Assembly: GCA_011033025.1 (NCBI GenBank) | Contig: WFMF01000274.1 | Span: 1-64,000 of the forward strand | Length of the DNA stretch: 64,000 nt | Origin: Beroe forskalii | Taxonomy: Eukaryota; Ctenophora; Nuda; Beroida; Beroidae | Direction: 5' to 3' | In this document: piece after piece, positions 5,078 through 49,546 of the stretch | Layout of the letters: the number at the start of each line of letters is the position of its first letter | How positions within the stretch are numbered: position 1 is the first letter of the stretch | The notes under the pieces: model-generated | What the model was told of the DNA's origin: nothing | Seen by the model: only the letters and a program-made list of their open reading frames with translations | Database searches by the model: none | Position numbers and translations under genes: made by a program

Positions 5078-8000
5078 CTCTGAGCAGTGAGCACCAATAG
5101 AGTTCCCATCAACTGTTAGATCTGTCAGCTCTATCTGATAGTACCATTCCTTTACTATGTCTGTGTAGGTGTAGGATGCGTCAGCAGAACCACCAAATTC
5201 CTGAAGATGACACGAAATGTTACCTTGTGTTGTTTTGAAACCCATGGTGGGGCTGGTTATGTGCCGAAATAGTAACTACATTTTATACATCTACAACGAT
5301 ATACCATACAACGAGGAACCAAACATAACTCAATGCTTCAATGTACCAATCGCCTTACTTGTAAATCAGTAAAATCTAGGCTTTTTATCGGAATGAAATC
5401 TTGAGTATATATGCTAAAACTATGGGGCTGAAGAGTTACTGGACACCCTAATAATACCCTATATAGATTTAGCATAAATATTGGCTATTGATAACACCGG
5501 TTCTCCCCATGAGTATAAACTCTGTGCTAACCTGGTAAACCTGGCACTGGCCCAACCCTTACAGGAATTTATTTCAGACGCCGACCAAACCAGGCTCGCT
5601 TCTACCCAACTACCCAAACAGGAATCTGTTCCAAACCCCTACATTAACATTTAACAACACAACCCTATCTAGAACTCACCAATGCCCCATGTAAGTCAGG
5701 TGTATCCCTGTCTCTCTGTCCACAAAGTGTAACACTGAACAGGGGTTGCGGTATCACGTGACTTTTAGTCAGGGAGTCCAGCACCGGAACACTGCTATGA
5801 GGGCTCGGCTGAAGGGAGGAAAAATAATTTTTTAACTCAATGATGGGATCTCTGTTTATTATCAGCTCAATTGATACTGATTAATGTTTCAGTCAAAGCA
5901 AATAAAGGAAGGAAATCATGTTGGAAAACTTCTGCACTGACTCTTAATTAAAGTCTTACTGTCTTAATCTTCTTGCAAATCTAAAATTTGTTGTGATGTT
6001 ATTTGATAGGTGGAATCAGTTTGTAGACAGTACCTGCATAAGAGCTTGGTATCCCAGTCCGAGGATCCCTTGCCACAGACCACGATACACAAAGAAGTTG
6101 GAGGAGGTGGTGATCACAGAGACATCCACAATCCCACTCTCGCCTGAGGATAAGTATTATCTTCATTTCTGTTTTCATTTTGATCTCATTGCGGCCAAAG
6201 TTCCGCAATCCACGTAAGCCTCTGTGTCTCACAATCACTATCAGATCTGAGATGCCCAATCCGTCCGCAAACTCGCAAAGAAACAGGACCTCAGTAAAAA
6301 GCTCCTAACAGAGGTTCTGTCTCCCGCGGAGCAGCGTGGATGTGGCTGCAAGGCCCCATTTTTGAAGTTTCATTGCTTCTTAATATTCATTCCAACAGCT
6401 GTACGGTCAATTGTACGAATTGGAGGGTCCAAGTGACGGTTAAGTGATTGTAATCCATACATTATTTGGGCAGGACTTCGCTGCGATGGGCAGCTCCTCA
6501 ATAAACCCGCCCGGTCAATGTCATCAATTTTTCACTTGAAATATTGACAGGGACATAAAGCTTGGCGTATAACTTGATTAAAGTTTAGTAAGATAATGAG
6601 CTACTAGTTATTGATGAGTTGATAAGGAAGGTGCCTACTCACATTCCAATTTAACACGGTAAATGCTGTTTCAACACGTTTATGACTGTATGTTTACAAC
6701 GAAAATGATGATATTATTATTATTTATTTATTTTTTTTTCTTATAGTTAAGATGTCGATATCATGATACGATATTCAGATCATTAACTAATTATGTGTAA
6801 CTAATTATGTGTACCTGTAGAACAATTCATAAGCTTTGCTTACCAATCTACAAAATTCATAAGCCAAAATAGTTACAAGGCTTTTAATTTAAAAAGATCT
6901 ACTTTTCTTAGAATTCATGCGCTTTTTAAGATTCAAATGACGCAATTCATATTATGAATTGTGTCAATAAAGCTTATGTATTTCATAAAAGACTCATAAT
7001 TCATTAAGCTTTACGTTTACTTCATCACGCATAACTAACAAGACTCACAATTCATGAGATTGACTTACAGGTTTCGCAATTTATGAGCTTGACTTACAAG
7101 TGTCATAATTCATGAGATTGACTTACAAGTTTCGCAAAGTTTGAAAGTGTCAGTAGCGTAGTACCCATCCCATGAGCCGTTTGAATAGTGAACACTTATA
7201 CTTCTGTCTTTTTTACCGATATAGCTTCCTGATCTGAAAAGGAAGAATTAAATGAGGGTACCTATAAATACACAAAAAGAAAGTTTATTGAAAACGAGAT
7301 CGATTTTGACCAAACCACTGGGCTCGCCCTTTCCATTCATATGTAACACAAATATTGAGAAGGGATCAAAATTCATGGCTTGGCTTAGTGAATGATAAAT
7401 TTAATCAAAACTTTGAACAAAACCTTAATCAGTTACAACTAGAATAAACACTATTTTTCACACACTTTGAAGAATCATAGAAATCATCAACTCCTGCTGA
7501 TAAGGAACCTGCTACAGCAAAGTTAGCACTTCCAGTGTCCACAACTACATTCAACGGTTGAGGAGGGGTACCTGTGGAAATAGCATAAAAGGTCGTATGA
7601 AAGTGTACCAATGACCTCCTACTGTTCCACCCCAAAAGCAGCAGCAGCAGACCCCCTACTGACCCCATAACCCCCTGTGCATTGGTAGAGGCTCATTGGT
7701 ATACTTTCATTCGACCGTATGAAAAGAGGCAAAATAAATAAATTAGAACGCTTCTTTCAAGCTTCTTACGAGCTTGGACATTTTCAGGTGTAGATATCTT
7801 GAAGGGAACAATTTCAGCCGTTTAATCATTTTAACTAAAACATAACTTGTGATTATGTTCACAAACCGGGGAAAATAAGTTTGTGCTACAATAGGTGCAA
7901 ACAAATCAATAGTTTGCTAATAGTACATACCGAGAAATATTTCAATATAGTATCCTAGTTCTGGTTGTCCATAAACTTTTTTCACATTTTTCTGATCCTC

Positions 8001-8293: not shown

Positions 8294-8651
8294 CCATCCA
8301 TAAATAAGCTAGAAACTCAAGTTCATTACTGTAGCATGTCAATAAATACCTTTTATGGATTTTGTTGATCATATGAATGAAGATTATAAATCTGATTAAA
8401 GGATAATCTAGTAGAAATAGCCAAATAAAAGTCTATTGAAGATTATAATGTAGGATCAGTCAATGTTAACAAGAACTCAGAATTCGATTGTAACAGTCAT
8501 ACCAGTGTTAAAATATTGGGTCAGATCCCTGGCAGACCTCAGACAGGTCAACTAGTGCTCACTTAGGGACCAGGATCAGCTTTGATATATAAATGATTGC
8601 TTTTACTTAACTGATGGCCATCCGAACTCACTATGACACGAATATCAAAGA

Positions 8652-9660
8652 ATGCAGTTGAACACTATAAGAAAAAAAAGTATAGGTATCAATTTTATAA
8701 ATTTCTGGTATTTAATGTTTTTGCGCGACAGTAAAACTAGTATGTTTTACCTCATGTCTATCAACCTTTTGTTAATTGTAATAACCACACCCAGTATAGT
8801 CAACCCAGGCCCAATTAGTGCAACGTTCAGACCACTTAAAGTTTTCTACAATAATGTCCAAGGCTTTGTAAACCCAAATCACCTTAAGTCTGACTCCCCT
8901 CCATTGAATATGAAAAAAGTCCACGAACTTCATGGCTTTATTTTCACTGAAAAACCTGATATTATCATTCTAAATGAAACCTGGCTAAAGAAATCTATTC
9001 TAGACAACGAAATTTTTCCTCCTGATTCTTATAAAATTTATAGAGCCGACAGGTCCGGTGAAACACATCCCTGGGATCCAAGCAACCCTAAAAAATACCG
9101 TAGGTTTGGTGGTGGTGTTTTAATAGCGCATCGACTTGACATAGCCTTAGAAAGTACCAGAGTTAGTTCGGTGAAAGCATTAGCTGAAATTTTAACATTG
9201 AATTTCAAACTGCCAACAGGTAAAAGGTTAAATCTCTCAACATTCTATCGTGTTGGTAACCTTGGGCTTGAAAATTTTGAATCTGTTAAAACATATCTCA
9301 CCACTCTGGCTGCTAAGAAAAAATTAGACAAACATATCCTCATCGGGGACCTAAATTTCCCTGAAATTTCGTGGCCTGACGAAAACACCTCCGTTGAGCT
9401 GCATAAAAAAGTTTGTCAATTTATTTATGCTTGATCTCAACCACTCTCAACTGATAACTAAACCGACTCATAAAAACGGGAATATGCTTGATTTACTATT
9501 CACCAATGTTCCAGAGTTGATTGAAGATGTTAGTGTAATGGGTTATAAAGAGGCCTGCTCATCAGATCATTTTGGAATTAAATTCTCGCTAAAAGTTAAT
9601 ATAGCACATAAAAATTTCCAAAGAGATCAATGTATAATTATCATAAAGCTGACTGGAAAA
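8652..9660 (+). pseudogene. LINE endonuclease (EEP/APE-like) region, frameshifted
   Basis: An open frame at 8652-9434 gives motifs in the usual order for the exonuclease-endonuclease-phosphatase fold: NNVQG, ILNETWL, FGGGVLIA and IGDLNFPEISW. A shift near 9400-9430 moves the continuation to another frame, which carries LDLLFTNVPELI and the catalytic SDHFGI near 9570. In an active element this domain nicks target DNA to prime reverse transcription. The break separates the SDH motif from the rest. Confidence 0.85.
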
Positions 9661-11798
9661 ATCTAAATTATGATATGAAGAAATTAGACTGGGATAGAAT
9701 TATTGGCAGTCACGACCCATGCGAATCCTGGGAAATTTTCAAAACAGTCCTGAGTAAGCTATGTGACAAATATATTCCTAAAAAGTCTATCAAATATCAA
9801 TTTCAACCACCATGGTTTGACTCGGACTGTGCAAAGGTACTTCGAGAAAAGGAAAAGTGGAGGGCCAAAGCAAATTCCTCAGCTGGTACAGAGGAGGATC
9901 ACAAAAAATTTCGACAACTAAGAAGTGATTTTAAGAAAGTTATGGACGAGAAAATGAGATTAAGTGTAGAAGATGATACCGACCCAGCCCTCGTCTCGAA
10001 GAAATTTTGGAGGCATGTCAAATCCAAAACTAAGTCAACAAGAATACCTGAAACTGTACACTACAAAGGTAAGTATCGCACGAAACCTTCTGATCAAGCC
10101 GACTTATTTAATGCCTTCTTCTGTGACCAGTTCTCTGATAAAAGCAAATACGATATTGACATTGATATGAGTGCCAATAGAAGTTTTCTAGACCTAGAAT
10201 TCCATGTGTTGGATGTCATGTTACTATTGAAAAATGTCAACCCGAATAAAGCCGCCGGCCCTGATGGTATCCATGGTATGGTTCTTAAAACTGTGCTTCT
10301 AGTATAGCCAAACCACTTACGCTGCTTTTTTAATATATCCTTCGTCTCAGGAATTATTCCAAACGACTGGAAACTTGCTTCCGTTGTGCCAGTGCATAAA
10401 AAAAGAAGATAAGGGCTGTGTCGGTAATTATAGACCAATTTCTTTAACTTCACTTGTCATGAAAGTTTTTGAGAGGTGCATACACAAGGAACTTTTTATT
10501 GCCTGCGAAAATTCTCTAGATTCTCGACAACATGGTTTTGTCAATTCTAAGTCATGTACAACACAGATGGTCCCTTTTATACATGACCTTAGTCTTAATA
10601 TCAATAAAGGGACTACTGCTAATATAATTTACTTCGACTTTGCGAAAGCCTTTGACAGTGTGTCTCATGACATCATCCTACATAAGCTGAAGTATGAATT
10701 TAATATCGATGGGCTTATGCTTAGGTTCATCAAGTCTTATCTGGAAGGTCGACTGCAGCAAGTGGTCATAGGAGGAGCCACATCGACCCCCTCCAGTGTA
10801 GATTCAGGTGTGCCGCAGGGTTCCATCCTCGGCCCGCTCCCTATTGTATTATTTATTAACGACATGTTTTCCTGTATCTCTGAGGGAACCCAAATTGTTT
10901 TGTACGCTGACGACACTAAAATATGGAGGAAATCATCACATCGGATGATCATTTTGCTCTCCAGACTGATATAGATAACCTCCAGGCCTGGGCCACCAAA
11001 AACAAGATGAAATTCCACCCTTCAAAATGTAAAGCCCTATCAGTCACAAACAAAATCAATATCCTACATAATCTCCCATGTACAGTATTTAATTATAAAC
11101 TCGGTCGTGTTTTTATTGATTATGTCGACTCTCAGAAGGATCTGGGAGTATATGTTAATGGGAAACTCTCATGGAAGGATCACTGTGATAAGCTTGTTGC
11201 TAACGCCCGGTCTAAACTAGGGTTGTTAATGCGTACATGCCATTTTACATTGGATAGAAAACAAAAGAGAGTATTCTACCTAAGTATTGTTCGTTCAATT
11301 TTTGAACATTGCTCCATTCTATGGCGTCCTTTAAGTAACAATCAAATAGCACCTTTTGATGGCATTCAAAACAGGCTATAAAATGGATTCTTGGTGAGAG
11401 GTTTAATCATTATACTGATATCGAGTATTTTGAAAAACAGAGAGAACTGTCTATATTACCTATTAAGATGAAATTCTATCTTAATGATCTCTGCCTATTT
11501 TATAAAATTATCAATAATCTTGTCATCATTAACCTCCCAGCTGAATTTGAACTCCTAAACCCTGATGAGCTACGGTATACACGGAAAAATTCTGCTGTTA
11601 TTAATAAAGATGATAAAACCAGGATTAAGTGTACTATTAAAAAAAGTGTCGGAGGGTTTTAAAAAATCATTCTTCTGGAGAACAATGGAAATATGGAACA
11701 AGATTCCATATACCATTAGGCAAGTTCCTGCCATCTCGACATTCAAGGGACAGATTACCAAATTCCTGTGGGAAGCCCAAAATGGCTGGCCGGATTGA
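9630..11798 (+). pseudogene. LINE reverse transcriptase region, frameshifted
   Basis: Successive frames carry NPNKAAGPDGI (near 10,240), GNYRPISLTSLVMKVFE (near 10,430), YFDFAKAFDSVSHD with the motif A aspartates (near 10,640), GVPQGSILGPLP (near 10,815) and YADDTKIW (near 10,905), then a C-terminal region to about 11,798. These are the canonical fingers-palm motifs of non-LTR reverse transcriptases. Frames change near 10,310, 10,950, 11,380 and 11,640. After GPL, the usual L-F-x-L is replaced by PIVL, consistent with decay. Confidence 0.88.
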
Positions 11799-16560: not shown

Positions 16561-16594
16561 AAAAAACATTGGTATGTGTCCCATATAAATCTGG

Positions 16595-19050
16595 CTTAGG
16601 GTGCGCCCTTTTTTCAAAGTTTTTTGGGCTCAATGGTCCACTGGTAGATATCAGTGAGCTGATCACGAATATATCAAGTTTTTTGAAATTGGACAATGCC
16701 TTCCTTGTCCGCAGGGCCTTTTGTGTTTTCGACGTCATGTCACGTGTCATATCACGTGACCCGTCTGCTAGTACTTTGTGCGCTGGTTGCTTCCGCGCGC
16801 GCGATTGTTATACTGTGCGCGTTCGCGGATCTGTGATCTGATGGCAGAGGAATTATAGGAATTAGGAATTGCTTATGGCAGTGGCTGGGTCCACTGTTTG
16901 AACTTTTAAAGCTTACCAATACTATAATACTGAAGACCAGCTTCTGAAGAAACGCATGAACTTATAATCCAGATCGCGATCGAGTTTGTTTCTTTGTTTA
17001 ATCTCTTAATACTTCAGCACGAGCGGATTCGACTAAGCAGATTTAGCAAAATTAGTAATTACTCAAAGATGGCAGCATCGAGTAAACGAGAGAACAAAAG
17101 AGTCAAGAAATCTAAAAAACTCAAAGTACCTAAGCGGATCCGCTAAGCTACTGCTAAGCGGATCCGCTTAGCTACTGTTAAGCGGATCCGCTTAGCTCAA
17201 TGGATTCAGCTCAGCGGATTCAATATTCATCTGAGAGGATTCAGCTGACTGCCTGAGAGGATTCGGTTTTGCGGATTCAGCTATTGCTGTGTAGATCTGC
17301 TAAGCTACTGCTATAAGTGCTAAGCGGATCCGCTTAGCTTAACGGATTCAGCTGAGAGGATTCAGTTTAGAGGATTCAGCTATAGGCGGATTTAGCTGAA
17401 AGGATTCAGGTAATCGAATTCGGCTTAACGGATTCAGCTGAAGGCAGATTCAACTTAGCGGATTCAGTAGTGGATTCAGCTCAGAACCACTCGACGACTC
17501 GACTCGACGACTCGACTCGACGAATCGACTCAACGACTCGACTCGACGAATCGACTCGACGTCGAGTTTTTGAGTCATCGAGTCGAGTACCATCGAGTTG
17601 ACTTTGAGCCGTCGAGTCGAATCAAGTCGTCGAATTGAGTCGTCCAATTGAGTCGTCGAATTGAGTCGTCGAATCGTCGAGTCGTCCGGTCTTCGAATCG
17701 TCAAGTTGTCCAGTCGAGTCGAGCTGTCCAGTCGAGTCGTCGAGTCGAGTCGAGTCGATTCGATTCGAGCCGATTCGAGTCGATTCGAGTCGATTCGAGT
17801 CGAGTCTTCGAGTCGATTCGCTTCAATTCGATTCGAGTCGAGTCGAGTCGAGTCGAGTCGAGTCGTCGAGTCGAATCGAATCGAGTCTTCGATTCGTCGA
17901 GTCGAGCCGAGTCGAATCGAGTTGTCGAGTCGTCAACTCAAGTCGAGTACCGTCGAGTCGAGTACCGTCGAGTCGAGTACCGTCGAGTCGAGTACCGTCG
18001 AGTCGAGTACCGTCGAGTCGAATCGACTCGATTCGAGTTGTCGGGTCGAGTTTTCGAGTCGAGTCAACGAATCGATGACTCGACTCGACTGAATCCGCTA
18101 AGCTGAATCGGCTCTCAGCTGAATCCGTTTAGCCGTATCTGATTACCTGAATCCTCTCAGCTATATCCGCTTTTAGCTAAATCCGATAAACCGAATCCAC
18201 TCAGCTGAATCCGCTAAGCTAAGCGGATCCGCTTAGCACTAGCAGTAGCTTAGCAGATCGGTCAAGCTCAAGCTGAATCCGCTAAACCGAGTTGGGTCAA
18301 CGAATCGATGACTCGACTTGACTGAATCCGCAAAACCGAATCCTCTCAGGCAGTCAGCTGAATCCTCTCAGATGAATATTGAATCCGCGGCCGCTGAGCT
18401 GAATCCATTGAGCTAAGCGGATCCGCTAAGCTAAGCGGATCCGCTTAACAGTAGCTAAGCGGATCCGCTTAGCAGTAGCTTAGCGGATCCGCTTAGGTAC
18501 TTTGAGTTTTCTAGATTTCTTGACTCTTTTGTTCTCTCGTTTACTCGATGCTGCCATCTTTGAGTAATTTTGCTAAATCTGCTTAGTCGAATCCTTGCTC
18601 TTGATGCTGCCATCTTTGAGTAATTTTGCTGAAGTATTAAGAGATTAAACAAAGAAACAAACTCGATCGCGATCTGGATTATAAGTTCATGCGTTTCTTC
18701 AGAAGCTGGTCTTCAGTATTATAGTATTGGTAAGCTTTAAAAGTTCAAACAGTGGACCCAGCCACTGCCATAAGCAATTCCTACAATTCCTCTGCCATCA
18801 GATCACAGATCCGCGAACGCGCACAGTATAACAATCGCACGCGCGGAAGCAACCAGCGCACAAAGTACTAGCAGACGGGTCACGTGATATGACACGTGAC
18901 ATGACGTCACGAAACACAAAAAGGCCCTGCGGACAAGAAAGGCATTGTCCAATTTCAAAAAACTTGATATATTCGTGATCAGCTCACTGAGATCTACCAG
19001 TGGACCATTGAGCCCAAAAAACTTTGAAAAAAGGGCGCACCCTAATCTGG
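16595..19050. mobile_element. ~2.5 kb fold-back element with ~700 bp inverted arms
   Basis: The left arm (about 16,595-17,280) and right arm (about 18,340-19,050) are near-identical reverse complements. Outer ends are TTAGGGTGCGCCCTTTTTTC on the left and its complement on the right; interior landmarks such as CACGTGTCATATCACGTGAC, CCAGATCGCGATCGAG and CTCAAAGATGGCAGCATCGA occur once in each arm. The inner arms carry AAGCGGATCCGCTTAGC palindromes and GGATTCAGCT units. There is no coding capacity. Target-site duplications were not identified; an extra ~260 bp block on the right (19,060-19,310) separates a possible outermost end match (TGTCCCATATAA near 16,578 and its complement near 19,317). 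Confidence 0.85.
17488..18092. repeat. GTCGA pentamer satellite at the core of the fold-back element
   Basis: About 600 bases are built almost entirely from GTCGA/TCGAC pentamers with TTCGA variants. Orientation changes near 17,560 (CGACTCGACGTCGAGT) and again near 18,070. A higher-order unit GAGTACCGTCGAGTC repeats five times at 17,940-18,020. The pentamer period opens all reading frames, giving false serine/arginine/glutamate/valine proteins. Confidence 0.93.
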
Positions 19051-20348
19051 CTGAGTTACGTCTTCCCCTAACCAGGGGCGTCGCGCGTAACCAGGGTCCT
19101 GGTTAGGGCAAAGTGACGTCACAGACCTAAACGTCAATCTTTTTTGTATCCTAAACCTAATCATTGCCCTTACCAAAACCATAACCTTAATACTGCGACC
19201 CTAAACCTAACAAATCCTGACCCTAACCGTAACCTTTAAAGCGCTAGATGCGCTTAACTATATTTTTGAATTTTTCTGACTGACGTCATTATCATATATA
19301 ATGAAGGCCCTTGAATTATATGGGACACTGGCCAAAATATTTATCAGGCGTTGGGGCCGGCCGGCAGACAACGTTTGTTAAGGCGTCAGCGGGTCAGACA
19401 ATCCGGTTATCCGAGGTACTGTTTATGTTATTGTTAGTGTAAGTGAATTCGTGTTGCAGACTCCCCGAATGAATAAATGATTATTCTGAAACAATTTGAT
19501 ATGGTTCCACACTTATTCAATTTTGATTTCCCGACTGATATCATGAAAACATATAACAATGGTCAGACATTTCAGACAACATTTCAGACAACGTCCGACA
19601 ATTACAAACCTATGCACAATGCAGGCTTAGGAACTGGCAAGCCATTGTTATATGTTATATGATATCAGTATGGGAAATCAAAATTGGAATAAGTGCCAAA
19701 AAAGGGAACCATATCAAACTGTTTCAAAATAATCATTTAATATTCATGTAAGTTCATAAATCTTATATTTGTTACAGTTACACTGTACACTAACAATAAC
19801 ATAAACGGATATACAACTCTCAATTAATACAGTATTACAGTTTCTATTTCTGAGGGCACTGTCAATGAAAATTTCATTGAATCATTGATTGATATAAAAA
19901 TAAACGGGTAAAATAGTGAATTTGTTCCAGCTATAACATTTAACATATATATTGTGGTATACATGGATCGTTGGATCAATACCAATTGCCAAATTTGACA
20001 TTCAATTTTATCCATGACCTTCAAGATTTTGAATTGAACGCGAGCATAATACAAATTCTCAGAATCGACCTATAAGTATAATTGTGAAACATCGATATAA
20101 TATTTCGGTCACAATATAAAAATAGTCATTTATATTAAAGAGCTCTTCAAATCTGTTCAAGTTAAGAGGCGGAAATGCTTTTCTTGTTACAATGACTGAC
20201 CAGAATACAACGCGTCATATTGAATTAAAGCAGCAAATACACGCGTGGTTTTTTCATAAGATTCTCACGCACGTGACTTATTTTCATACAGTTTTCGCGA
20301 GCGTGGATCATATTTCCAAGAATTTCATTAATCTGCACATTTAAATGT
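19051..20348. other. Repeat debris and 3' flank of the PAH gene
   Basis: Contains a CTAACCAGGG/CCCTGGTTAG fragment (19,060-19,112) and a degenerate CCTAAACC/CCCTAACC-rich stretch (about 19,130-19,235). Three TGACGTCA palindromes are nearby (18,902, 19,114, 19,281). No gene is evident; the PAH 3' untranslated region should occupy part of 19,900-20,348. Confidence 0.45.
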
Positions 20349-23300
20349 TTAATCCTCAAGTTTGTTGACAGCATCTTCCAGGGTCTTCATCTCACTGGCC
20401 AGATCCCGGATCATCTTGACGCAGTTGGAGCGTTTGTTGATCAGTTCCACGGACTGGGTGTAGGGGTTGTAGCGCGCGGTGAACGCTCGGGGGATTTGAG
20501 AGGAGTATTCCCTGGGAAGGAGGGAGAAATTAGCTGCGATTTTCGTGGAATTTCTCCGTTTTTAAAGAGTTGACAAACGAAGAAAATTGATAAAAGATGA
20601 AGGACTGAAGGAATATTATTGGACAACGAGTAAGAAGTCGTGAAATCAGCCCAAACTCTGCAAGAGGAAATATCAATCTGATTTTGGGATAAAAACATCA
20701 AAAACCCACCGAACCACTGGTCCATGTCTCACCTGACTTTTCTCTTAGCTTCCCCAAACGATGGAGCCACGAAGTACACCGGCTGGATGGTTGTTATTGG
20801 GTACTTAGTTACCGCAATCTCAGGCACCTCAAACGGTAGCTTCTTGGAGGCATCACACACGCAGTTCTGTAGTTCTTCAATCGAGGAGAGGCAACCTGCA
20901 GGGTCATTGGTTGTTTCAAATGTTTCACATAATTTAAAGCACAGTTATATTTGATTTCACGGATCGGGTCGTTGAGATTATACGGTATACCGCCCGAAAA
21001 TATGTCAGACCAAGCCTTTTACTTCCTGACCTCCGATCTCGGTTTCAGGATTCAAGGCCTGAGAGTGATCTGTTGTCAAAATGAAAATAACTGATCACCT
21101 TAGATTTCAGTTTTCAACAATTGATTCGCGGAAATTTGGATCCAATGCACAAGTAAAAGAATAATAGGTTCCTCATATCTCATTCTCAACAAAGCTTGTG
21201 TTAAGAATAAAACCACGTAAAAGTATTGACAAAGAATCAACGATGCTTGCTTTGCTAACCTGCACCGTAAGCTTTGAGTGCCCCATCTTCCCTGCAAACC
21301 CCGAACTCAATAGTGAACCAGTAGAGTGTAGCCAGCTTCTCAATCCAATCATCAGGCGCTCCAAGGGACGCCATACCGATCTCCTGGAAAACGAATTTTT
21401 AGCAAAACTTTGTTATTAGGAACTTGAAAGATACGTGGAGAAAACGTGAAAACTCAATTTAGTTATTTTAGATTTTAGAAGGTACTAAGTAGGTTTAAGT
21501 TTGAAAATCTAGCTACCAATTGGGTATACCCATAGCAATTGGAAATGCAATTTGTGCTGTTTCAATGGCAAATAAGCGTGTAAATGCGATGTATATACAT
21601 AAATGTATAAATGCGCGGCGTGCGCGCGTTGAATTCTGTCAAAGAAAATGGTAAATTGGAAACTTATTCTAACAAAATTTGTGTTCGGCGCCCGCGCGCA
21701 GCAGAATTTCAGAGAAAATTTCCCTCTACATTCAAAAAAGATTCGCAAAGAGCATCAATGACCAGTCATAAATTCAATTACAGATTTTATCACACACAAA
21801 AGCAAAATTCAAAGTCCTATAAACTGAGAAGCTTTATGTGACTGTGTAATAGTAATAAGATTAAATTTCTCTCCGGTCATGGACCACCATCAATGCCTTC
21901 TTGAGCGAGGCTAAACAAATAAAAATCTTTGCACGTTGCTGCTCAAGACAGGACTTCTTAGGAATTAGGACAAATTTGCCTTTCAAATTGTGCCATGTTA
22001 TAAAACTATTTACTATTATATGTAGGTACCCAAGGCCCAAGTGCTCACAACTTTTCAAGTTTTTCAAATGAAGAGAAAACAAAGGTAACCTGAGAGAAAG
22101 CTGCGAATTCAGGATCACAAAACATTGGTACGTGTCCGATCAACTCGTGGCACACATCTCTGAAATTAAACGGTAATAATGAGGTTCAATTTGCTACAGC
22201 AAAGGAATTTAGAAAATCACAAAAAAGCTAAAAAGAGATACCCGTCGTTTACAAATTTCTTGCTGAAATACTCCTGTGATCCCCAAAAATGATAATTGTC
22301 ATCAAGTGATCACATCCCTGATAATGACATCACTAACTCACATTCTAACCCCAGATAATGACGTCATCAACTTACGGTTCGGGGGTGTAGAAGGGGTTAG
22401 CCCCATGTCGAATGTACTGAGTGCTGTGGAACACTCTAAACGCTAGTCCAGCTAGGAAATCACGGGATGAGAGAAGGCCAGCCACGGGGCGTAGAGTGAA
22501 TCCAGTGCAATCTGAAGGGAGGGGGTTAAAAGGGAGGGGTTAAGGGGGGAGTTAGGGGGTTAGGGAAGAGTGAGGGGTAAAGGGGGAGTGAGGGGGGTTA
22601 GGGATGAGAGGAGGCCAGCCACAGGGCGTAGAGTGAATCCAGTGCAATCTGAGAAGAGAGGGGTTAAAAGGGAGGGGTTAAGGGGGAGTGAGGGGGTTAA
22701 AAGGGAGGGGTTAAGGAGGAGTGAGGGGTGTAAAGGGATGAGAGGAGGCCAGCCACAGGGCGTAGAGTGAATCCAGTGCAATCTGAGGAGAGAGGGGGCT
22801 TAAAAGGAAGGGGTAAAGGGGTAAAGGGGTAAAAGGGGGTTCAGGAGGAGCGAGGGGGTCAAATAGTTTGACCAAAAGGTTTAATTATAATAAATGCAGA
22901 ATCAACGATTTTAATCGAAACCCCACATTTTAAAAGATTTGCTGTGTTTTTATTTGTCCATATCCCTGCGTAAACATATCTCTCAAGATTTTTCTGTCAC
23001 GAAACGTATTTTACTGCTGAATTTAACGTGTCCGACCTAATGACTTGGAAATTTGATGTGTGAATGTGACTTTCCCAACATTCGCAAGTTTGCAAGTTTG
23101 AATTGTGGGAACCGTATTTTGTGTGTAGAAATACTGCTTGCAAAATGTGATGAAGCAATTACTCAAGTTGCTTGCTAATCAAGTCTGGAGTATGGATTTA
23201 ACGAGGTAAAAGGAAATTGAAGCTCTTTGTGACTCCTGTGAAGATTGGATCAAGCTCAATGTAAATAAACAAGTGAAAGTGTGAAGATTGAATCAAGCAA

Positions 23301-26300
23301 GTAAATAAACAAACATAGAACAGACATGGAAACACGTTGTCCTCCGAAAAACAAACAAAGAAAACTTCACAAAAATCTATAAAAATCCACCCAATCAAAC
23401 AACATTTGCCCTTGGGATCTACTTCAATGATACATGAAACTACTTTGATGATACATGAAACTGAAATGGTTCATAAAGTTATTCTTTGTCCAGAATTAGC
23501 ATAAATACCTTCAAGAAATTGATATTGCCCCAAACGTTAACATTAAAACCTGATCACTAAAATAAAAACTAATCATGAAAAGCCCACCCACCTTTCAGAA
23601 ACTGAGAGACCTGCTGGAGCTGTGGAATGTTATCCTTGTTGTAGTTGCAGTTCTGTACCAGTAGTGGCCACACATTCCTGATTAATAATAGTCACATGAT
23701 TATAATAGTCACAGTACTTGAAGATTTGAAAGTGAAATAACTGGACAGGTCGATACAGCCAGAATATTATCAATTATAATGATTTCAAACAATCAGAGTA
23801 CTCATTTTCATAAGGGCAGCACTATTTCACAGATATGAAATATTGTTATTCTATAAATCGATTGTACATTGCCAAGAAATTGAGCTAGATTTTGTTTACC
23901 TGAATTCCTTACAGGCGTGGGTTTCAAACAGGGTGGAGAGCTTGGTGAAGACAGTACTCCAAGTCTTGAGTTCTGCTTCGTTGTACTCAACGGCGGGGAT
24001 AGGTTCACCACTGGGAGAAGAAATGAGTATTAATGGGGGATTAAAACAATATCGCTTGGAGACACCAAAGAGAAGGGATATACAGGAGTGGCTATTATTA
24101 GGGGAAAATAGATGTATTTAGGGTATAATTGGGATTGGTTCACCACTAGGAGAAGATTAGTGGCAAGTGCCATATATTTGGAGACGTTGCAAAAGCTGTA
24201 AATTGAGTTGAATGTACAGCAAGTGTAATATGTCTTGTTAGTCTCTCATTGTGTAAGCTTGTAAGGAGTTGGCACTGAGTACTCACTCAAAGATTTTTGT
24301 GTATGTTCGATGCTAACAATAAAAGTTTCAATGAGTCAATGTAAGTCTTTTGTAAACTATCGATGAATGAAGCATAAGCTTTCAATGAACAATTTGACCC
24401 AAGGGAAGAATTTTGCCCTGTGGGCCTGTGGCCCTCTGAGCCATCACGTTTGTAAACACAAACAAGTTTGAGATGCTCTTACTACAAGAAAACTTGTATT
24501 TCCTGACCGGAAACACTAATGACACTCATTACACACCGTTTAATCGTTTATACAGCCAAATGTTTCTCAAGAATGACGCCATGATTATGGTTTACAATGG
24601 TGAATTGATGACGTTGAATGTGTGTACTGTTTACCAGCGTTTACCACTAAAACATGCTGTTCACATCCATCCGTATTACTCAGAGCATGGAAATATGCTT
24701 GCTGACTTCATCAACTCACTATTCTAAGCCCTGGTAATGACGTCACTCTCAACCACCAATTTGTTGAGTAGAAATTTGGAGCGTTTAAGCCATGCGTTGG
24801 TGTATGAATATTGTGATAAAATGTGGATAAACAGGTTGGATAAAAAGATAAACAATGTACAGAGAAGAGGTTCCATGAGAAGGTGACGGGAAGTGCGTTT
24901 CTTCAAGCAAATACTCAAATAAAGTACTCTGGGGTTGCTACTTTGCTAGTTAAGTCACATAATTAGTTACGTCACATTATTCTTGTTTTTTGATAATTTT
25001 TGTAGGATTTTCAGTAAATTGACTATGGTAGTATTTTTAGTGAATTGCTGTACTGTAGATAAAAATAATCATAACCGGTTTGGCATTACGAGTCAAAGAG
25101 TTCTACAGAACTAATTTACTTTTAGCGATCTGCAATTTTAAAACAGACCTTTTCTAAGTGCTTGGTCATAACTTTTTTCTTTCGGTTAAAAGAATGTCAA
25201 GAACTGAATTTGATGAAGAAAATTCCATAATTTACAGGAATCTTAATATCTAATTTATGTTTTTTGTGATTTTGACCCTCGAAATGTTTCACGGTTAAGT
25301 GCTAAAATATTATCCTTTTGTTAATAGCTCTCCCAGAGACGCAGCTGGTGCCCCTTTGTCTAGGTATTAAAATTTTTGAGTTTAATCAACAATTTAATCT
25401 AATTTGCACATCATGTGACTTAAAACAGTGGATTTAAATTCAACAATTTTCAGCTAAAAATTTTAGTGTTTCTCACTTTTTGGAACGATTTAATATGAGT
25501 ATAAATAGTCAAGTAAATTCCTCCTAAAATACTTTTTATCTTGAATTTTTAGTTCGAGTTGAAAGTTTGAATCAATAATTCTTTTGTGATCGTTTCTTCA
25601 TTTCAATTATACAGAAATAACCGGGGACATAAATACCAGTTTATCTACAGTCTTGAAAAAAGCATTTTGGGTCTTTCAAACTTATCTTATATCTATTCTA
25701 GTATTCCATGCAACCTTGAACTACATCAAAACATGTGTTGAAATGATGGATTTTGAACACTAAACAGCTCTTGACCAATGATAAAAATCCCCCACTTTGA
25801 GTGACCCGTGGAAACATGAAGAACACTCTCTTCCTCTTAGCAGCATGCCTTCTCACAACCGTCATGGGACGGATGATACCACACCCACCAAAGAGGAACA
25901 TGGTCAAGTGTGACATGAACCTGTTTGATCCAAAACAGGATGGAGCAGGAGATTCTATAGGTTGGTGACGTCATTATCAGGGGTTAGAAAGGGGAATTTA
26001 TGATGTCATAATCAGGGTTTAAAAGGAAGAATTGATTGCAACGTGACGCTATTTTTCGTAGCATTTTTTAATGATTATTTCCCATCTTATCTGCCTGATT
26101 TGTATTTGACATTGATGTGATTTTTAAATTGATGCCAAAACACCCCCAGGCACTGTTACGATTGAGGCTGACTTGGAAAACGAGAGTTGGCTCCGGATCA
26201 TGTTTGATTTGGATGACAATGGTGCTGGGAAGTTGACAGCAGGGTACCATGGCGTCCACGTGCACAATAACTCAGTGGACGATGGTATGTATAGACCATA

Positions 26301-36327: not shown

Positions 36328-39300
36328 ATGTCACTGAAAGCTATGAGACACCTGGCAAGATGGAACTGCATTCGACCTAAAAGTTCGGCCATGGCATCTG
36401 GTGTTGCAGGTCAATTCTGATTCCATCAAGTGTAATCGAGAATCATCTGTGAATGATCAAAATTAGATGTGTTGCTCTAACCAGATCCCTAGTTTTACAC
36501 GTGTGCCCCGTTTTGCAACACCCCTGGTTAGGGGGGGGAGTTTCACTGTCCCAATTGTCCCTGTCCCAATTCACTTTTTTTTGAGTTTGGGACTGGTTTT
36601 TGGGACATTTGGGACAATTGGGACAAACAAAAATTTGAAAAAATTAGTCATTTATCATTTTTTACATTGATTCAAGATTTTCTATCATTGAAATGAATGT
36701 TATATTCATACTAGTATACTAAGTTCATATTCTGGTTGTGTTTGTTTGCCGTAGTTAAGTGTTCCCACTTTCCTATCCCAAAACCTATGATGGGAAAAAG
36801 ACAGTGGCAGTTGCAACACAGCAAGTGCTGCTATGTAACAGGCTGTGAGACAAAAACACTAAACTGCCGCTCAAAAACACAATCATTTGAATCCCAGTTG
36901 TCTCTGCCATTTTTGTCCCAAATGTCCCATTTGATCCAGTCCGCACTTACTTTTTTGAGTTCCATTTGTTCCACTTTCTCTGTCCCATTTGTCCCAAATG
37001 TCCCAATTGTCCCAGTCCAAATTCACTTTTTCGAGTCCCATTTGTTCTATTTTCTCTGTCCCATTTGTCCCAATTGTCCCATTTGTCCCAAATGTCCCAA
37101 TTGTCCCAGTCCAAATTCACTTTTTTCGAGTCCCATTTGTTCTATTTTCTCTGTCCCATTTGTCCCAATTGTCCCATTTGTCCCAAATGTCCCAATTGTC
37201 CCAGTCCAAATTCACTTTTTTGAGTCCCATTTGTTCTATTTTCTCTGTGCCATTTGTCCCAATTGTCCCATTTGTCCCAAATGTCCCATTTGTCCCTGTC
37301 CCAATCCACTTTTTCTTGAGTTTGGGACAATTGGGACAGTGAAGTTAAAATAACTTCAATTTTGATTTCAGGGATCATTCTTCTTGAATTCCCAATTATA
37401 TAATGATCTATCAATTGTTTGACCAGGTTCAGCTGCAGTTTACACAGATAGTCTGGAATTCACGAACCCAAAAAGCATGCCTCAGATACCTACTTATAGA
37501 GTCCTTGATAGACATGGCTCCATTAAAAAAGGCAATGTAAGTTGTTTGTAAGTATATTAACTTAGATTTGTTTCCTTTTTTATTGATCAATCAGTATAAG
37601 GTGTCTTGGATTGTTACTAAATCATTTATTTCTGTACACTGAGATTGGACACATACTACCATAAACTTCATTATTGCATACCAAAAACTAAACATTCTAT
37701 TTAATAATTTCCAGGTACCATCAAGCTTATCAGCAACTCTTCTAGTAGAAATCTACAAAAAGATGCTTCTGCTGAGTAAGATGGATAAAATCCTCCTACA
37801 GTCTCAGCGTCAGGGCAGGATATCTTTTTATATGACCTGTAGTGGAGAGGAAGCTGCAGTTATTGGTAACTACTTGTTATGTACATTGGTAACTACTTGT
37901 TATGTACATTGGTAACTATTTGATATGTACATGAGTAGGTATTTTCAATAAGGGAGAATTCAATTTATCTTCCCTGTTGATAGTTTCTTGTTGTCCTTTG
38001 ATGCTTTTACATTTTAATCTAAAAGCAATTGAAATTTTATTACATCAAATTAATATGAAGCTTATCTTTTTGCAGCATATAACTCTAAAAGTCTAATTCT
38101 AAGATCCATAATCTCTACATCAAATTCAAATCATCTACAGGGAGTGCAGCAGCTCTACAGGATTCTGACACAGTCTTCACTCAGTACAGAGAAGTTGGCG
38201 TGTTCCTGTGGCGGGGTTTTACCCTTGATGACGTCATGAACCAGTGTTTCAGCACCCACAAGGTGATTATTGTACAGTTACTGCATGAAAAATACTTAGA
38301 CTTGCTGTAAAGTAGGGATTGCTTGTTTGATTTTGGGTGCTGCTATTATGATTTTAGACGACAGAATGGGAAGTGAATTTATGCATAACTTTTTGAAATA
38401 TCTGCTATTAATCCATGAACCTTGACTGATATTACTTCAGGACAACACAAAAGGTCGTCAGATGCCCATTCACTACTCTGCCAGAGAACACAACATCCAG
38501 TGTGTTAGCTCTACCTTAGCCACTCAAGTACCTAATGCTGTGGGATATGCATACTCCAACAAACTCAAGAACAAGAAATCGGTAGGAAGATTGAGTAGCT
38601 CTCTAGCAAGATTCCTCTGAATTAGAGCATTGAAATATTCCCAATATTCAATTTGAGATACAATCAATAATTTTACTTACACTCAAATTGCAACGTGTAT
38701 TGTCACATGTGTTTCTCATTTGTATTGTTACGAGACCCAATTCGTGACCCATCTTGTGAATCTGTCCGTGACCCATCACGAGATGTCGCCAGGTGACGGT
38801 GGCGTATTTCGGGGAAGGGGCTGCTAGTGAGGGAGATGTACACGCTGCAATGAACATGGCTGCTGTCCTGTGCTGCCCTACCCTCTTCATCTGCAGGTAT
38901 ATACAGGGGAAGCCGGAAGTGATTCTTTGCTATCAGCTTCTTAAATCAATCATTAAACCATGAGCAGTTGATAGTTTGTTGATTTGAAATTATCCACATA
39001 CTGTCTCCTACGCTTGATGACTTTTATAAAATAGTGTTATTCGTAGCTTATCCCCTTTGCCCCTATGCAAATCCTTCATTTTCCCATCATTATTCATTTC
39101 CCTTCAATCTACCTACTTTCAGGAACAATGGGTACGCCATATCGACGAGTACAAAAGACCAGTATTTCGGTGATGGAATAGCAGCAAGAGGAGCGGGGTA
39201 CGGGATTAGAACTGTTAGAGTTGATGGTGAGTGGTATAACGCGGCATAGTTCATTTGGTTACACGTTGTATATCACGCAGTGGTACACTACGATATCGTC

Positions 39301-40391
39301 ACTTTTTACCGGCTGAAAGTTGAACATATCGCTCATATCAAGCAATGAAAAGTTGATTCTTAAAAATGAACGTCACTCACAGATTGACATTCTCTAGCCC
39401 TCAACCTATCACAGATTGACATTCTCTTGCCCTCAACCAATCGCAGGTAACGATCTGTTCGCGGTATACCAAGCAGTAACAGCTGCTCGAGAGCTAGCTT
39501 TATCTGAGTCGTGTCCGGTGCTACTGGAACTGATGACGTATCGTGTGGGACACCACTCTACTAGTGACGACAGTACTGCGTACAGGTATAAGATTAGTCA
39601 TAAGTGGTATCGCGAATTTATATGGGAATGAAATTCTCAGTCACATTTCCAAATTAGAAGTTGAAAGCAGCTTGAAAATCCAAACGAAATTAGCTTAGAA
39701 ATGAGAAGTTTGCGCTTAGACGTAGGCTATTGGAGTATTGGTGATAAGGGTTAGCGTGAGAGTCGAGGGCTCAGGAAAATCGAAGTAAATTCTAACTTTG
39801 AACTTGCCGTTTGTTTATCTACGCGTAATGGCAAAGCTTTCAGATCCATAGACGAGGTGAATTACTGGAATACTCGTGATAGTCCCGTGGGTCGCCTGGG
39901 TCACTACCTCGTGCAACAGAAACTCTGGAGTGACGAGGAGGAACAGAGCTTTACTAAAGAGGCGAGGAAGTTTTCTTTTTATTATTTTTTAAAATTTTTA
40001 GATGCTAGGAGGTGAGGAACGTTTGATTTTCATTTTGATATATCAGCACCGATTTGAGCTAAAACTTGCACAATCGGAGTAAAGTTTGATCGCTTAATGA
40101 AGCCCACCGAAATGAATTCATTGACTGTAGATTCCATTGATCACTCTTCTCGCTGTTCACTAATTATTCTATTTAAACCCAACTAACTCCCCCTCCTTCC
40201 CCCAGTGTCGTAAGGAGATCATGGGAGCCTTCAACCAGGCAGAAAACACCCCCAAACCCTCACCCTACCTGGTGTTTGATGACGTATACGATACGATGAC
40301 GTCACAATTGGGTGAACAAAGGAGGAGTTTAGAGGAGCATTTGGAGGAATACGGAGAGAATTACAACTTGGATGAGTATGATATGAAATAA
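36328..40391 (+). CDS. BCKDHA: Branched-chain 2-oxoacid dehydrogenase E1 alpha subunit, 10 exons
   Basis: Exons 36328-36409, 37427-37536, 37715-37865, 38141-38262, 38441-38581, 38793-38896, 39123-39226, 39447-39585, 39844-39961 and 40206-40391 give 418 aa (human 445). The basic N-terminus ([20 protein letters not shown]) fits a mitochondrial targeting peptide. [12 protein letters not shown], the thiamine-diphosphate region [10 protein letters not shown] through RNNGYAIS (residues 208-243) and [11 protein letters not shown] are conserved. The regulatory loop [20 protein letters not shown] keeps both serines phosphorylated by BCKD kinase in mammals (here Ser309, Ser319). The subunit pairs with E1 beta to decarboxylate oxoacids from Leu, Ile and Val. 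Exon 9 is in phase with exon 10 only if its intron begins with GC (39,962), a GC-AG intron. All other junctions are GT-AG. Confidence 0.95.
36539..37345. mobile_element. Inverted-repeat element with internal minisatellite in BCKDHA intron 1
   Basis: The left end TTTCACTGTCCCAATTGTCC (36,541) matches the right end GGACAATTGGGACAGTGAAG (37,323) as an inverted repeat. Inside, about 36,950-37,300, a ~108-114 bp unit made of TCCCATTTGTCCCAAATG and a TTCACTTTTTTGAGTCCC spacer repeats three to four times. Frames across it read as Pro/Cys/Asn/Val- or Ser/Gln-rich repeats and are not proteins. A CTAACCAG-family fragment (36,476-36,535) abuts its left end. Confidence 0.8.
37862..37932 (+). repeat. 23 bp tandem triplication of the BCKDHA exon 3 donor
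   Basis: The donor ATTG|GTAACTACTTG at 37,866 lies in a 23-base unit repeated three times (ATTGGTAACTACTTGTTATG then TAC), giving further identical donors 23 and 46 bases downstream. Confidence 0.93.
39376..39446 (+). repeat. ~34 bp tandem duplication at the BCKDHA exon 8 acceptor
   Basis: CACAGATTGACATTCTCTAG is followed by CCCTCAACCTAT, then CACAGATTGACATTCTCTTG and CCCTCAACCAAT before the true CGCAG acceptor at 39,446. The first copy ends in an equivalent CACAG. Confidence 0.85.
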
Positions 40392-41750: not shown

Positions 41751-41751
41751 T

Positions 41752-46105: not shown

Positions 46106-46418
46106 GGGTTGTCTGACTGGAGCTTTCCACCATTCCGCTCTCCAGATCTGTCTGTGCTGAGAAATCCACCTTTTTCTCCGCTGGAGACCGTTTCAGGGCA
46201 TTCTTTAACTTTTTTTTCAAGAACACCTCCATTTCTGAAAATGTGCAGTCATTAGTCAGCTGAAGTTGAGTGATTTTAGCCACACTCTGGTTCAGCTTCC
46301 TCACCGACATAATTGCATATTTCTTGGCGCTTGTAATCAGGTGGACGAAAAGTCCGAGTAGGCACAGGGCCATAATGAGGATGAAGGAGGAGATTACGAT
46401 CATTGTCTTGTCTTCCAT
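46086..46418 (-). CDS. Small single-pass membrane protein (110 aa), unknown family
   Basis: From ATG 46418 the protein is MEDKT, a hydrophobic helix (about residues 6-29, IVISSFILIMALCLLGLFVH), then a basic and polar tail with FSEMEVFLKKKLKNALKRSP and a Ser/Thr/Gln-rich end (VESSSQTTPRSADE). There is no cleavable signal, so topology is probably type III or tail-facing-cytosol; that is inferred from the positive residues after the helix. The open frame extends 5' to 46,655, but this part looks like leader sequence. The terminal ADE and stop arise from reading into copy 2 of a 163 bp duplication, so the original tail was probably longer. Family not recognised. Confidence 0.6.
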   Translation of the reverse strand: MEDKTMIVISSFILIMALCLLGLFVHLITSAKKYAIMSVRKLNQSVAKITQLQLTNDCTFSEMEVFLKKKLKNALKRSPAEKKVDFSAQTDLESGMVESSSQTTPRSADE

Positions 46419-47024
46419 GTCGAACAAGAGTTGAACACAAAAGAGAGTTTGAGCAAAATAGGTTGAGCAAAGTAACTCGATGAGCGTAATATTCGTTGAT
46501 CGGGCAGAAATGAAATGGTTGCTAGTAGTGGATCCACGGGTCGATAGTGGATACAGACCGCAGCTTGTAGGACGAGTGACGTATGAGAGGTATAAAATGT
46601 TCAAAGACCAAGGAATTGCACGTGCCAGCAGACTCGGGTCCGACTGCTCCTTCATAATATCATATTAATAACGCGATGACACACTATACACTATACACCA
46701 CTAGGGCTGCACACGCGTGCAAACATGTGAATCATCACTTTGTTTGAGCCGCGCGCGCATTATCATATGAATATTTTATTGATTGAAAGGCGGTTAAGAA
46801 TACTCAATGATTTAAGATTTATTCAATGATATAATAACCAACATTGTAATCGAAATCAGAACTTTAAATTTCACAGATCATAAATTATCAATTCACTCGT
46901 TTCTTCGATCTTTCAATGATTAATCACGGCACTTAAAATAACGATCAAAAGTTTACTCTGCTGCTTCATACTTATCACAAATACTGCTTCTCCAATTCAA
47001 TTCCTTCTGAAATCACACAACTCA

Positions 47025-49546
47025 TCATCTTTTATCGTAATCCTTAAAACAAAGTCCAAATATCACTGTCATCAACACGAACGTGATTGAAAACGTAGCA
47101 AAGAACTTAGTAACAATATCACGTGACTGATGCTCGGTGTAACTGTTGTGGTAGCACTTTGTTGCGTTAGCAGCGGTACAGCAGGTGTCGTGTTGAGTGG
47201 TACAGATGGTAATGTTGTTATCGGGGGTGTCGTGACTGCAACCAGTCTCAATCAGACCTGCAAAGAAGGGGGCAGAGTTAGACTGGTTGAGACAACCTGT
47301 CTCAATGAGACCTGCAAAGGGGTACCAGGGTTAGGGCTAAGTAGGTTCTAACTTAAGTAAGAGACTAACGTTGCATACTGTCTCTATTGAATGTGAACTG
47401 TGACCTGTACCATAGGTATTGATTCATTGAACTAGTGCACACTGCAAGGCAATTAAAACCAATCGCGATTTTGAATCTTCACTTTAGACATTACTAGCAC
47501 GTACCTGAGTGATTTGACATGAAGCAGAAGCCCTTGCATTCCCGTACCGTACAGTTACTGAGGGACTCTGTGGTGTTAACTTGGGGTTGTAGAGGACACT
47601 TCTCACAGTGTAATGGTGGCTCTGATTGGCACTGTGGGTTTAAACGGGAATTAGACTGGAAGTAAACATGAATTTAACACTAAGAAGGAATTAAACAGGA
47701 TTTAAAAACAAGGTCTTGAATAGAATTTTACAGATTTTGAAAATAAATTAAAGGTGAATCAAACAGGACGTTAACAGGGATTAGAGACGATGTTCAAACA
47801 GGATTCAAACAGGGAATAAACAGAAGTTTGAAAAGCAATTGAACTGAAAATAACGTTTGAAATTTGTTGGAAATGAGAGAGAGAGAATGAAAATAGTGGG
47901 CGTTTGAAATAGGATTAGAATCTCAACTGAATCCTACCTTAGTTGCATTCCAACTGGTATATACAGTCCTTCCATCACAGCACCTGGTCCAAGGAAATTT
48001 TAAATTTGACATAAGCATTGTGTTATATGTGGTCTAGTTAGATCAAACATTTCATGGATAACTTTTAGCCTTGCTCGCAAAATAACAAAAGAATTGTGTG
48101 ATGATTCGCTCAAATATGCCGAGTGACAAGTTATAGAACACTTGATAGAGAATTTGAGTCTGGGTTGTGAATTCTTGACTAAAATTTATTACTGACTACA
48201 ACTTTTAAGGTTACAAAGGCCTTTCCATGCGGAATCAATGGATGATGCAGTCTGCATTCTATGGTACTGTTAAACTGACTTAAGAACTATTATCGATGGC
48301 CTAGTATATCACCCGTTAAAGCCCAAAATCGTCATTAAATCGACCAATCAGCGAGCGAGTTTACTATAAACGCATGCTGATTGGTCAATGTCAAACAGAC
48401 CAGCTCATCATCGTCTTGCTTACCTGTCGTGCTCTTTGCTACATTCACCGTAGTCTGATGTTCCTGCGCATCCACTGCGAAACCTATTGGAAAACATCGA
48501 ATTTAAATCCTTTTCATAACATTACTGTAGAAAAGAGTAAAAATTATCTTTTTCAAGTTTTTATGCCATTAAAATATTGAAATATCACATACTACCGACT
48601 GTTTTTATGAAATTATGATACTATATAACGGCTCTTTAAGATGGTAATGCTGCAACGGATAATGCGTGAATAAATTGAATAAATTCAAAATTGCGACACG
48701 TTGCTATTAACAAGTAAGGATATATTTTAACAAACTGATGGTTGTAAGAAAAATGAGATACTTTATGTCTATCGTTTAGCATAAGTAATATGTTTGCGGT
48801 AAATGATATTTCAACAATCTTAATTCTTGAGTTTAGAATAAATTCTCTACTTCAGCATCTTAAAGCTTTTCGGAATCTCCCGAGTTTATTACATTGCAAC
48901 ATTCTCCCTCGGCTCGGACATAACGTGCACGGCTCTAAAATTGAGGATGAATTGTTTGTTGTTTGTTTTATTGTTTGTTTTTTGTTTGTTTTTTGTTTGT
49001 TTTTTGTTTGTTTTTTGTTTGTTGTTTGTTTGATTTTTTGTTTTTTCTTCCTTTCGATACCAACCTGTCTCCGAAACAGAGGTTCCCCTTCTGACACGCC
49101 ACTGCTTGACACCCCTTATCACCATCACACTCATGACACATCACCGGGGGTATGTCGTGATTGCATGCGGAGGAGTTAAACCTCGCTCCGTGGAGGTCTT
49201 CACGGGCAAAGCAACAGTCACCCCGGTGCATGTTTCTGGGGAGAAAGGGGTGTTACTTTCATGGTTTGCAGGGGGGAGGGAGTCGAGAAAAACGCACTAA
49301 TTCTCGTTCGTTGAGTACGTTTTTGCGTCGTGTATTAAATTGTGAAAAAATGCTTGAAAAGGATTTTTAATTACTGAAAAAAAAAGTTTCAAAAATTTTC
49401 GGTTACCTGCACTCGTTTATTTCGTGCATGTACGGATTGCTACACCCACTAGCAGTGCTGGTTTTGTAACAGAAGTGTGAACGGTCGCATCGTTCTTCCC
49501 TGCAGTATCTTCTACGTAATAAGTCGCACGAGTAACAGAATATCCC
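47025..49546 (-). CDS. Membrane protein with three Ly6/uPAR (LU) domains, first exon missing
   Basis: Exons 49407-49546, 49065-49235, 48424-48483, 47938-47983, 47505-47631 and 47025-47257 join in phase to 258 aa. Three Cys-rich repeats follow the LU spacing: domain 1 FCYSC...ERC...FCY...SGC...ECR...DCCF...SACN; domain 2 VMCHEC...GC...VAC...LCF...SGC...ECS...RCCD...TKC; domain 3 LHCEKC...NC...ECKGFCF...TGC...IC...DTCC...TKC. A C-terminal hydrophobic helix (FFATFSITFVLMTVIFGLCF) and the short tail KDYDKR indicate a type I membrane or possibly GPI-anchored cell-surface protein. Asn-x-Thr/Ser sequons fit an extracellular location. The signal-peptide exon was not found; it should lie right of 49,546. 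Ligand unknown. Confidence 0.85.
47257..47315 (-). repeat. 54 bp duplication giving tandem acceptors for the last LU exon
   Basis: The exon start TTTGCAG|GTCTGATTGAGAC (47,257) is duplicated at 47,311 as TTTGCAG|GTCTCATTGAGAC. The 54 bases between are open in frame (GLIETGCLNQSNSAPFFA), so either acceptor yields an intact protein. Confidence 0.85.
48333..48397. mobile_element. CCAAT-box palindromic MITE copy in an LU-gene intron
   Basis: CGACCAATCAGCGAGCGAGT pairs with GCATGCTGATTGGTCAATG. It lies ~30-90 bases after the 48,424 donor. Confidence 0.7.
48955..49045 (+). repeat. TTTTTTGTTTG simple repeat
   Basis: About eight units of TTTGTTTGTTTT in an LU-gene intron. Lys/Gln/Thr/Asn-rich frames here are artefacts. 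Confidence 0.9.

Follow-up and report, generated by a model that had tools for sequence, protein, structure and literature searches.

Short local duplications copy splice sites in genes of a 64,000-nucleotide stretch of genomic DNA (contig WFMF01000274.1, positions 1 to 64,000, hereafter the window). The duplications are confirmed, and further genes elsewhere in the genome show them too. We read these structures, with a probability of roughly four in five, as mirage-type minisatellites, that is, as ordinary short tandem duplications near exon edges that are hidden by splicing and tolerated because splicing removes the surplus. Among 301 trusted junctions in 29 gene-model pieces, 21 are covered by a duplication (8 of 149 donors and 13 of 152 acceptors), a junction counting as covered when a duplicated copy encloses it by 3 nt or more. 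The bias of the duplications towards exon boundaries is modest, not strong. Decoy donor and acceptor arrays in essential genes such as dynein, myosin and PAH, some of them of true-site strength, amount to a natural experiment on site choice by the spliceosome, and the same arrays also inform how introns lengthen.

The five genes modelled in the window are PAH, a nested copper/zinc SOD, a BCKDHA-type E1, a BACE-like aspartyl protease and an LU-type protein. Their exon edges were placed by reading and the joined frame was checked; together they have 33 introns and 66 scorable junctions, where the first-pass annotation of this DNA had counted roughly 40. That annotation had named five junctions lying within tandem duplications, and all five do lie inside or against local duplications; the boundary falls inside the repeat unit at four of them and the remaining one abuts it. 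The features are the following, in window coordinates, with a slash marking the exon end in donor motifs.

7034..7137, minus strand: array spanning a donor of the BACE-like gene; 29-bp unit, 3.6 copies, each with CTT/GTAAGT or a variant; true exon end at 7127.
22464..22821, minus strand: array spanning the acceptor of PAH exon 7; unit of about 137 bp, 2.6 copies; true exon start at 22511.
23996..24156, minus strand: acceptor of PAH exon 5, single copy; true exon start at 24010.
37862..37932, plus strand: array spanning a BCKDHA donor; 23-bp unit (ATTG/GTAACT...), 3.1 copies; true exon end at 37865.
39377..39446, plus strand: repeat abutting a BCKDHA acceptor; 32-bp unit, 2.2 copies; true exon start at 39447.
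47239..47319, minus strand: acceptor of the LU-type last exon, single copy; true exon start at 47257.
36912..37315, plus strand: array in BCKDHA intron 1, a comparison case; unit of 76 to 94 bp, wholly intronic, no splice site copied.

The BACE-like donor unit, ACTTACAAG, is CTT/GTAAGT on the opposite strand, and each PAH exon 7 unit contains the pyrimidine tract, the CAG and the first 48 exon nucleotides. The BCKDHA donor unit contains just 4 exon bases, as does a donor unit in the myosin piece MYO_D outside the window. Two of the five cases differ from their first description. The BCKDHA acceptor repeat abuts the junction instead of spanning it, because its copies stop exactly at the AG without an exon base. 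The LU acceptor is found in two 27-nt copies (25 of 27 positions identical, both in the exon frame) that are 54 nt apart, and is therefore a spaced repeat and not a tandem unit of the full 54 bp. A sixth site, the acceptor of PAH exon 5, had been overlooked; here a 26-nt segment (24 of 26 identical) is also present 135 nt upstream. The duplicate finder, run at a score of at least 14, returned 352 segments in the window versus 0 in one first-order Markov sequence of equal length. Pfam supports PAH, the BCKDHA-type E1, the aspartyl protease and the nested SOD (Sod_Cu); the LU-type protein matched 0 Pfam families, and its name therefore rests on the first-pass annotation and on the cysteine pattern. 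The SOD gene has five exons (25816-27424, plus strand) and lies on the opposite strand within the PAH intron between 24010 and 27748. At BCKDHA exons 9 and 10 (39844-40391, plus strand) the chosen sites give no in-frame join, which points to wrong edges or an indel.

The structures would be accounted for by a simple sequence of steps. A short segment of about 20-140 bp, in which a boundary is included by chance, would be duplicated in tandem, and the unit might then expand or contract as any minisatellite may. One good site should remain usable, either the exon-proximal donor or the acceptor adjoining the complete exon, and the reading frame would survive because splicing still has this site to use. 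The remaining copies would become intron, and the intron thus lengthens. Selection would usually remove a duplication lying wholly in coding sequence, which leaves copies within introns and across boundaries to be observed. Every flagged event duplicates a single splice site, and the outcome is the lengthening of an existing intron and not the birth of a new one. In 19 of the 21 covered cases, exon sequence makes up a fraction of 0.17 to 0.92 of the unit; the other two have merged or underestimated units. This is as under random placement, and the splice site therefore looks unlike the start or end of a duplication. It also argues against template switching at splice sites, which had been proposed earlier.

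Dynein genes outside the window provide the plainest examples. Their arrays have donor units of 26, 40 and 86 bp and acceptor units of 34, 37, 49 and 61 bp; a myosin array has an acceptor unit of 34 bp. One dynein donor unit, in which GACAACCTCAAG is followed across the exon end by GTACGGTCC, is repeated about a dozen times. The locus L029 contains an intron with the 86-bp donor unit at one end and the 61-bp acceptor unit at the other. It has a near-identical partner, L030, about 7-9 kb away on one contig, with 114 of 118 and 153 of 156 bases identical in the two exon pairs. The shared intron measures 2789 nt in L029 versus 592 nt in L030, a difference made up mostly of arrays of the intron's own donor and acceptor. 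L029 holds 28 full copies of the acceptor unit and L030, by reading, a single one together with three donor units. With near-identical exons and unlike arrays, the acceptor array must therefore have grown in one copy or vanished from the other after the two separated. In a PTPS-type gene, outside the counts, a 69-bp acceptor unit forms an array that reaches the contig end; contig C1100 (L020) ends inside it, and an array of this kind may thus have interrupted the assembly.

Further observations concern the same gene families. At L037 (2160-2540) the upstream exon runs straight into a second occurrence of a dynein exon start, the arrangement of spliced mRNA, and the acceptor stretch recurs at 34 nt; we do not take this case to prove intron gain, as a usable donor was not identified there. 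A myosin motor exon at L024 (1125-1604) is present twice in tandem (104-nt segment, identity 0.86), like mutually exclusive exons. On contig C173 a myosin stretch is duplicated as L018 and L021, whose DNA is 91% and 94% identical over about 1.0 and 0.8 kb; gene modelling gave no exon in L025, which lies between them.

The copies largely retain their core dinucleotides, namely in 27 of 28 full copies of a dynein acceptor, in 6 of 6 of a dynein donor, and in 11 of 11 and 17 of 17 for PTPS. The two PTPS values come from one array read in two pieces, which makes three arrays in total, and the scoring took full copies only, out of 37, 11, 11 and 20 matches including partial ones. At three of the six window sites the decoys score like the true site, and they score lower at the other three. 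The equal cases are the PAH exon 7 acceptor (decoys 9.4 and 11.2, true site 10.1), the BACE donor (4.2 and 4.1, true site 4.2) and the BCKDHA donor (4.0 and 4.0, true site 4.0). That PAH, dynein and other genes tolerate such decoys implies a preference for one copy. Judged from sequence, the site used in RNA would be the annotated true site, and we infer that decoys are ignored through exon definition, with the whole exon and the partner site present at one copy only.

How often splice sites are copied was counted in a wider sample. The assembly comprises 216.1 Mb in 1134 contigs, and about 233 kb were fetched: 14 stretches of 10 kb picked by location (13 of them on other contigs and 1 beside the window), the end of one of these contigs, and stretches at myosin and dynein genes found by family searches. 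A small gene finder was trained on the window genes and later on predicted exons too. Nine of ten predicted proteins matched a Pfam family, and the one without a match was excluded. Matches above the cut-off were to trypsin, sushi, PTPS, four myosins and an ephrin-receptor-like region; an LDL-receptor domain was below the cut-off and in a different exon from the one giving the match. The later myosin and dynein exons are based on family search rows and conserved protein reading, the one round of Pfam scanning having been made earlier. The counted set has 24 of its 29 pieces elsewhere in the genome. Pieces are not equal to genes: MYO_B and MYO_B2, MYO_D and MYO_D3, and DHC_c and DHC_c3 share contigs and are probably parts of one gene each. 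We excluded L001 (a copy of the window), L021, L026 and L030 (near copies of L018, L028 and L029), L015 and L020 (the PTPS array, where only the exon preceding the array can be placed), the exon-less L025, and L002-L004, L006-L009 and L012-L014, whose gene models are not trusted; the L009 exon matched 0 Pfam families. Untrusted sites were also removed: the LDLA first exon with donor 2665, the TNFR-like exons upstream of 1206 including donor 3512, SUSHI 3896 and 4458, BCKDHA 39969 and 40206, MYO_C 1861 and 1219, MYO_D 1516 and 1764, MYO_F 2913, DHC_e 867, and the outer edges of some first and last exons. Since LDLA 2665, TNFR 3512 and SUSHI 3896 lie inside duplications, their exclusion lowers the observed count. 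Low-complexity segments were kept out of the main counts. Contig C441 (DHC_a) had been picked after its repeated rows were seen, and was omitted from the tests outside the window.

The covered junctions are spread over 16 of the 29 pieces; DHC_c3, DHC_d, DHC_f, DHC_i, DHC_j, MYO_C, MYO_D3, MYO_E, MYO_F, MYO_G, SOD, SUSHI and TNFR, 13 in all, have none. Set against intronic points, a comparison that the first-pass annotation had itself proposed for its idea of a systematic process, junctions show no excess: 7.0% of them (n=301) are covered versus 14.5% of intron-interior points (n=50,125), with 9.6% at an intron depth of 40 nt and 6.1% at 150 nt, and 2.5% in exon interiors (n=21,450). In the window the figures are 5 of 66 junctions (7.6%) versus 8.5% of 12,671 intron-interior points. 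With both copies placed randomly, which is the strict end of the tests, the window P value ranges from 0.55 (junctions counted, placement anywhere in the gene) to 0.001 (placement with little exon permitted, and the abutting site included). Because an array covers many intronic points but at most one true junction, we added a null that counts once per event, in which a unit of equal length is placed randomly in the gene span, not wholly in exon; this null is our choice and raises the excess. Under it, 21 of 58 events in all pieces include a junction versus 10.2 expected (P 1.7e-4). The window alone gives 5 of 10 versus 1.1 (P 0.0016), and the P values for the window are post hoc, as it had been flagged for splice-site duplications.

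Outside the window and without DHC_a, 14 of 46 events include a junction versus 8.2 expected (P 0.017), with 9 of 28 versus 5.0 for tandem (P 0.03) and 5 of 18 versus 3.2 for spaced duplications (P 0.19). At a score of at least 20 the same set gives 13 of 30 versus 6.7 (P 0.004), without the myosin exon duplication 13 of 43 versus 7.6, and with the larger unit estimates of an earlier version 13 of 40 versus 7.6 (P 0.018). The myosin and dynein pieces outside DHC_a, most of whose exon edges are fixed by protein homology, give 11 of 32 versus 4.8 (P 0.003). These P values stem from several related subsets, are uncorrected and rest on small numbers. The idea of a systematic process thus fares unevenly, backed by the recurrence in other genes and by a modest excess per event, and contradicted by the coverage of junctions.

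Several results weigh against the mirage-type reading in its plain form. The once-per-event ratio, bootstrapped over the 19 pieces outside the window, spans 1.07-2.61, on small numbers. Events with identity of at least 0.95, the youngest class, include a junction in 8 of 15 cases versus 2.2 expected, and those below 0.90 in 1 of 12 versus 2.3; an excess in the youngest class and none below 0.90 does not look like detectability alone. Wholly intronic duplications lie within 30 nt of a splice site in 13 of 28 cases versus 6.4 expected (P 0.002; P 0.06 for relative position alone), a finding for which constraint on exon sequence offers no account. Nor do decoys always match the true site, since they are weaker at the BCKDHA acceptor (4.2 and 5.0 versus 6.8), at LU (7.3 versus 9.7) and at PAH exon 5 (3.6 versus 7.4). 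The upstream PAH decoys equal the true acceptor in strength, and simple scanning would not predict their neglect. The boundary excess is probably a mix, in which the longer detectability of copies with constrained exon sequence is joined by a real, unexplained boundary tendency.

That detectability is the only cause is quite possible, although we place it below even odds. Selection would hold copies that carry exon sequence and a splice site, and such a pair would stay recognisable about twice as long; the overall excess is indeed about two-fold, the size predicted. The concentration of this excess in the youngest class speaks against it, as do units with only 4 exon bases (the BCKDHA donor and the myosin D donor) and the near-junction excess among wholly intronic events.

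A mutational hotspot at exon-intron boundaries, driven for example by transcription-linked breaks, nucleosome edges or R-loops, might instead drive intron growth. It would fit the once-per-event excess, both in the full set and outside the window, the clustering of wholly intronic events near splice sites, the maximum in the youngest class and the dynein intron with arrays at both ends. Event density is likewise 1.03 per non-exonic kb of gene spans versus 0.63 per kb in 9 loci (90 kb) without a gene model. Over whole gene spans, though, density is 0.71 per kb and near that of the gene-model-free loci, and coverage has no peak at the junction itself. The intronic clustering by relative position alone and the excess among spaced duplications alone are weak, and no fixed breakpoint was seen in the flagged cases, for which no motif search was made. 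We regard a hotspot as a tentative possibility. It is doubtful that a boundary-centred duplication process operating outside lancelets copies about 1 in 14 splice sites and is a main route of intron growth, some introns then consisting largely of copies of their own ends, with splicing picking among up to about 28 near-equal copies.

Selection could also retain the duplicated sites for alternative splicing and the protein variants it yields. The LU copy, 54 nt away, would fit, because its use would be open and in frame and add 18 residues, and AG or GT is kept in the full copies of three arrays. Against this, the BACE and PAH exon 7 copies run into stops if used and the BCKDHA donor array shifts the frame, and 28 full copies in one array exceed any such need; we think this explanation improbable.

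Still less probable is that the introns themselves were created by tandem duplication of AGGT segments, as the first-pass annotation had suggested in line with the Rogers model of intron gain. Donor-side and acceptor-side flanks resemble each other (score of at least 10) in 2 of 139 introns versus 0.05 expected, and the dynein exon start at L037 also follows directly behind its upstream exon. Neither of these two introns is among the flagged ones, whose flanks are not copies of each other and whose duplications copy only one intron end. The L029 intron also exists in its near-identical partner with far smaller arrays, and intron positions are, by reading, common to several dynein pieces. Intron gain of this type accounts for a minority at most.

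An assembly artefact, suggested by the contig that ends within the PTPS array, is the least probable explanation, because copies differ (best-segment identity 0.80-1.0 across the 58 events), unit lengths vary by locus and the flanking exons are read through.

Other features of the window lie apart from the splice-site duplications. Just past the BACE-like exons there is a satellite array with a 168-bp unit and about 17.5 copies (1328-4223). An inverted pair of similar stretches, with similar open frames on opposite strands, surrounds a TCGA-rich array (16563-19102, the array at 17489-18220). Open frames at 8637-11798 (plus strand) have a motif that we take to be that of a LINE reverse transcriptase.

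Duplications of this anatomy have precedents. A mirage case in Adh3 was reportedly described by Canestro in 2002. In lancelets, RT-PCR suggested regular splicing of genes with mirages, and two haplotypes with different copy number were found (PMC3087553); PGBD5 is a further lancelet case (PMC3902484). In these reports, mirages are tandem copies across a 5' or 3' exon boundary, and both boundary types are hit here. Their units measure 10-160 bp, compared with 12-162 bp here over all events; their copies likewise carry AG or GT, and array size likewise varies between near-identical intron copies. By anatomy, the present cases belong to the mirage kind. The hosts in these reports are all lancelets. 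Lancelets have many genes of the GFP family, for which a search of the present genome gave 0 matches, a result that does not prove absence; this and the doubled motor-domain exons of a muscle-type myosin (L024), a protostome feature, are weak arguments against a lancelet host. The lancelet reports considered here proceed gene by gene, whereas here junctions were counted in genome sequence. The duplications also resemble the Rogers model (PMC3443670) in being short direct duplications with splice signals that are concealed by splicing. In that model a duplicated exon segment gives both ends of the new intron, whereas the flagged cases here copy one end. Internal tandem repeats of human segmental duplications (PMC2812944) are similar in their mean unit of about 30 bp and in copy-number differences between paralogues, and at an exon-intron boundary they may change introns; half of them are in coding sequence, and the passages seen do not state their frequency at splice sites. 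No genome-wide count of splice-site duplications was among the literature matches listed, a coverage that leaves most subscription journals outside. The kind itself is thus already described. Novelty would lie in how frequent it is and, should the host be no lancelet, in its occurrence in a further lineage. The figure of 21 in 301 junctions turns a few lancelet reports into a quantity that can be counted in any annotated genome.

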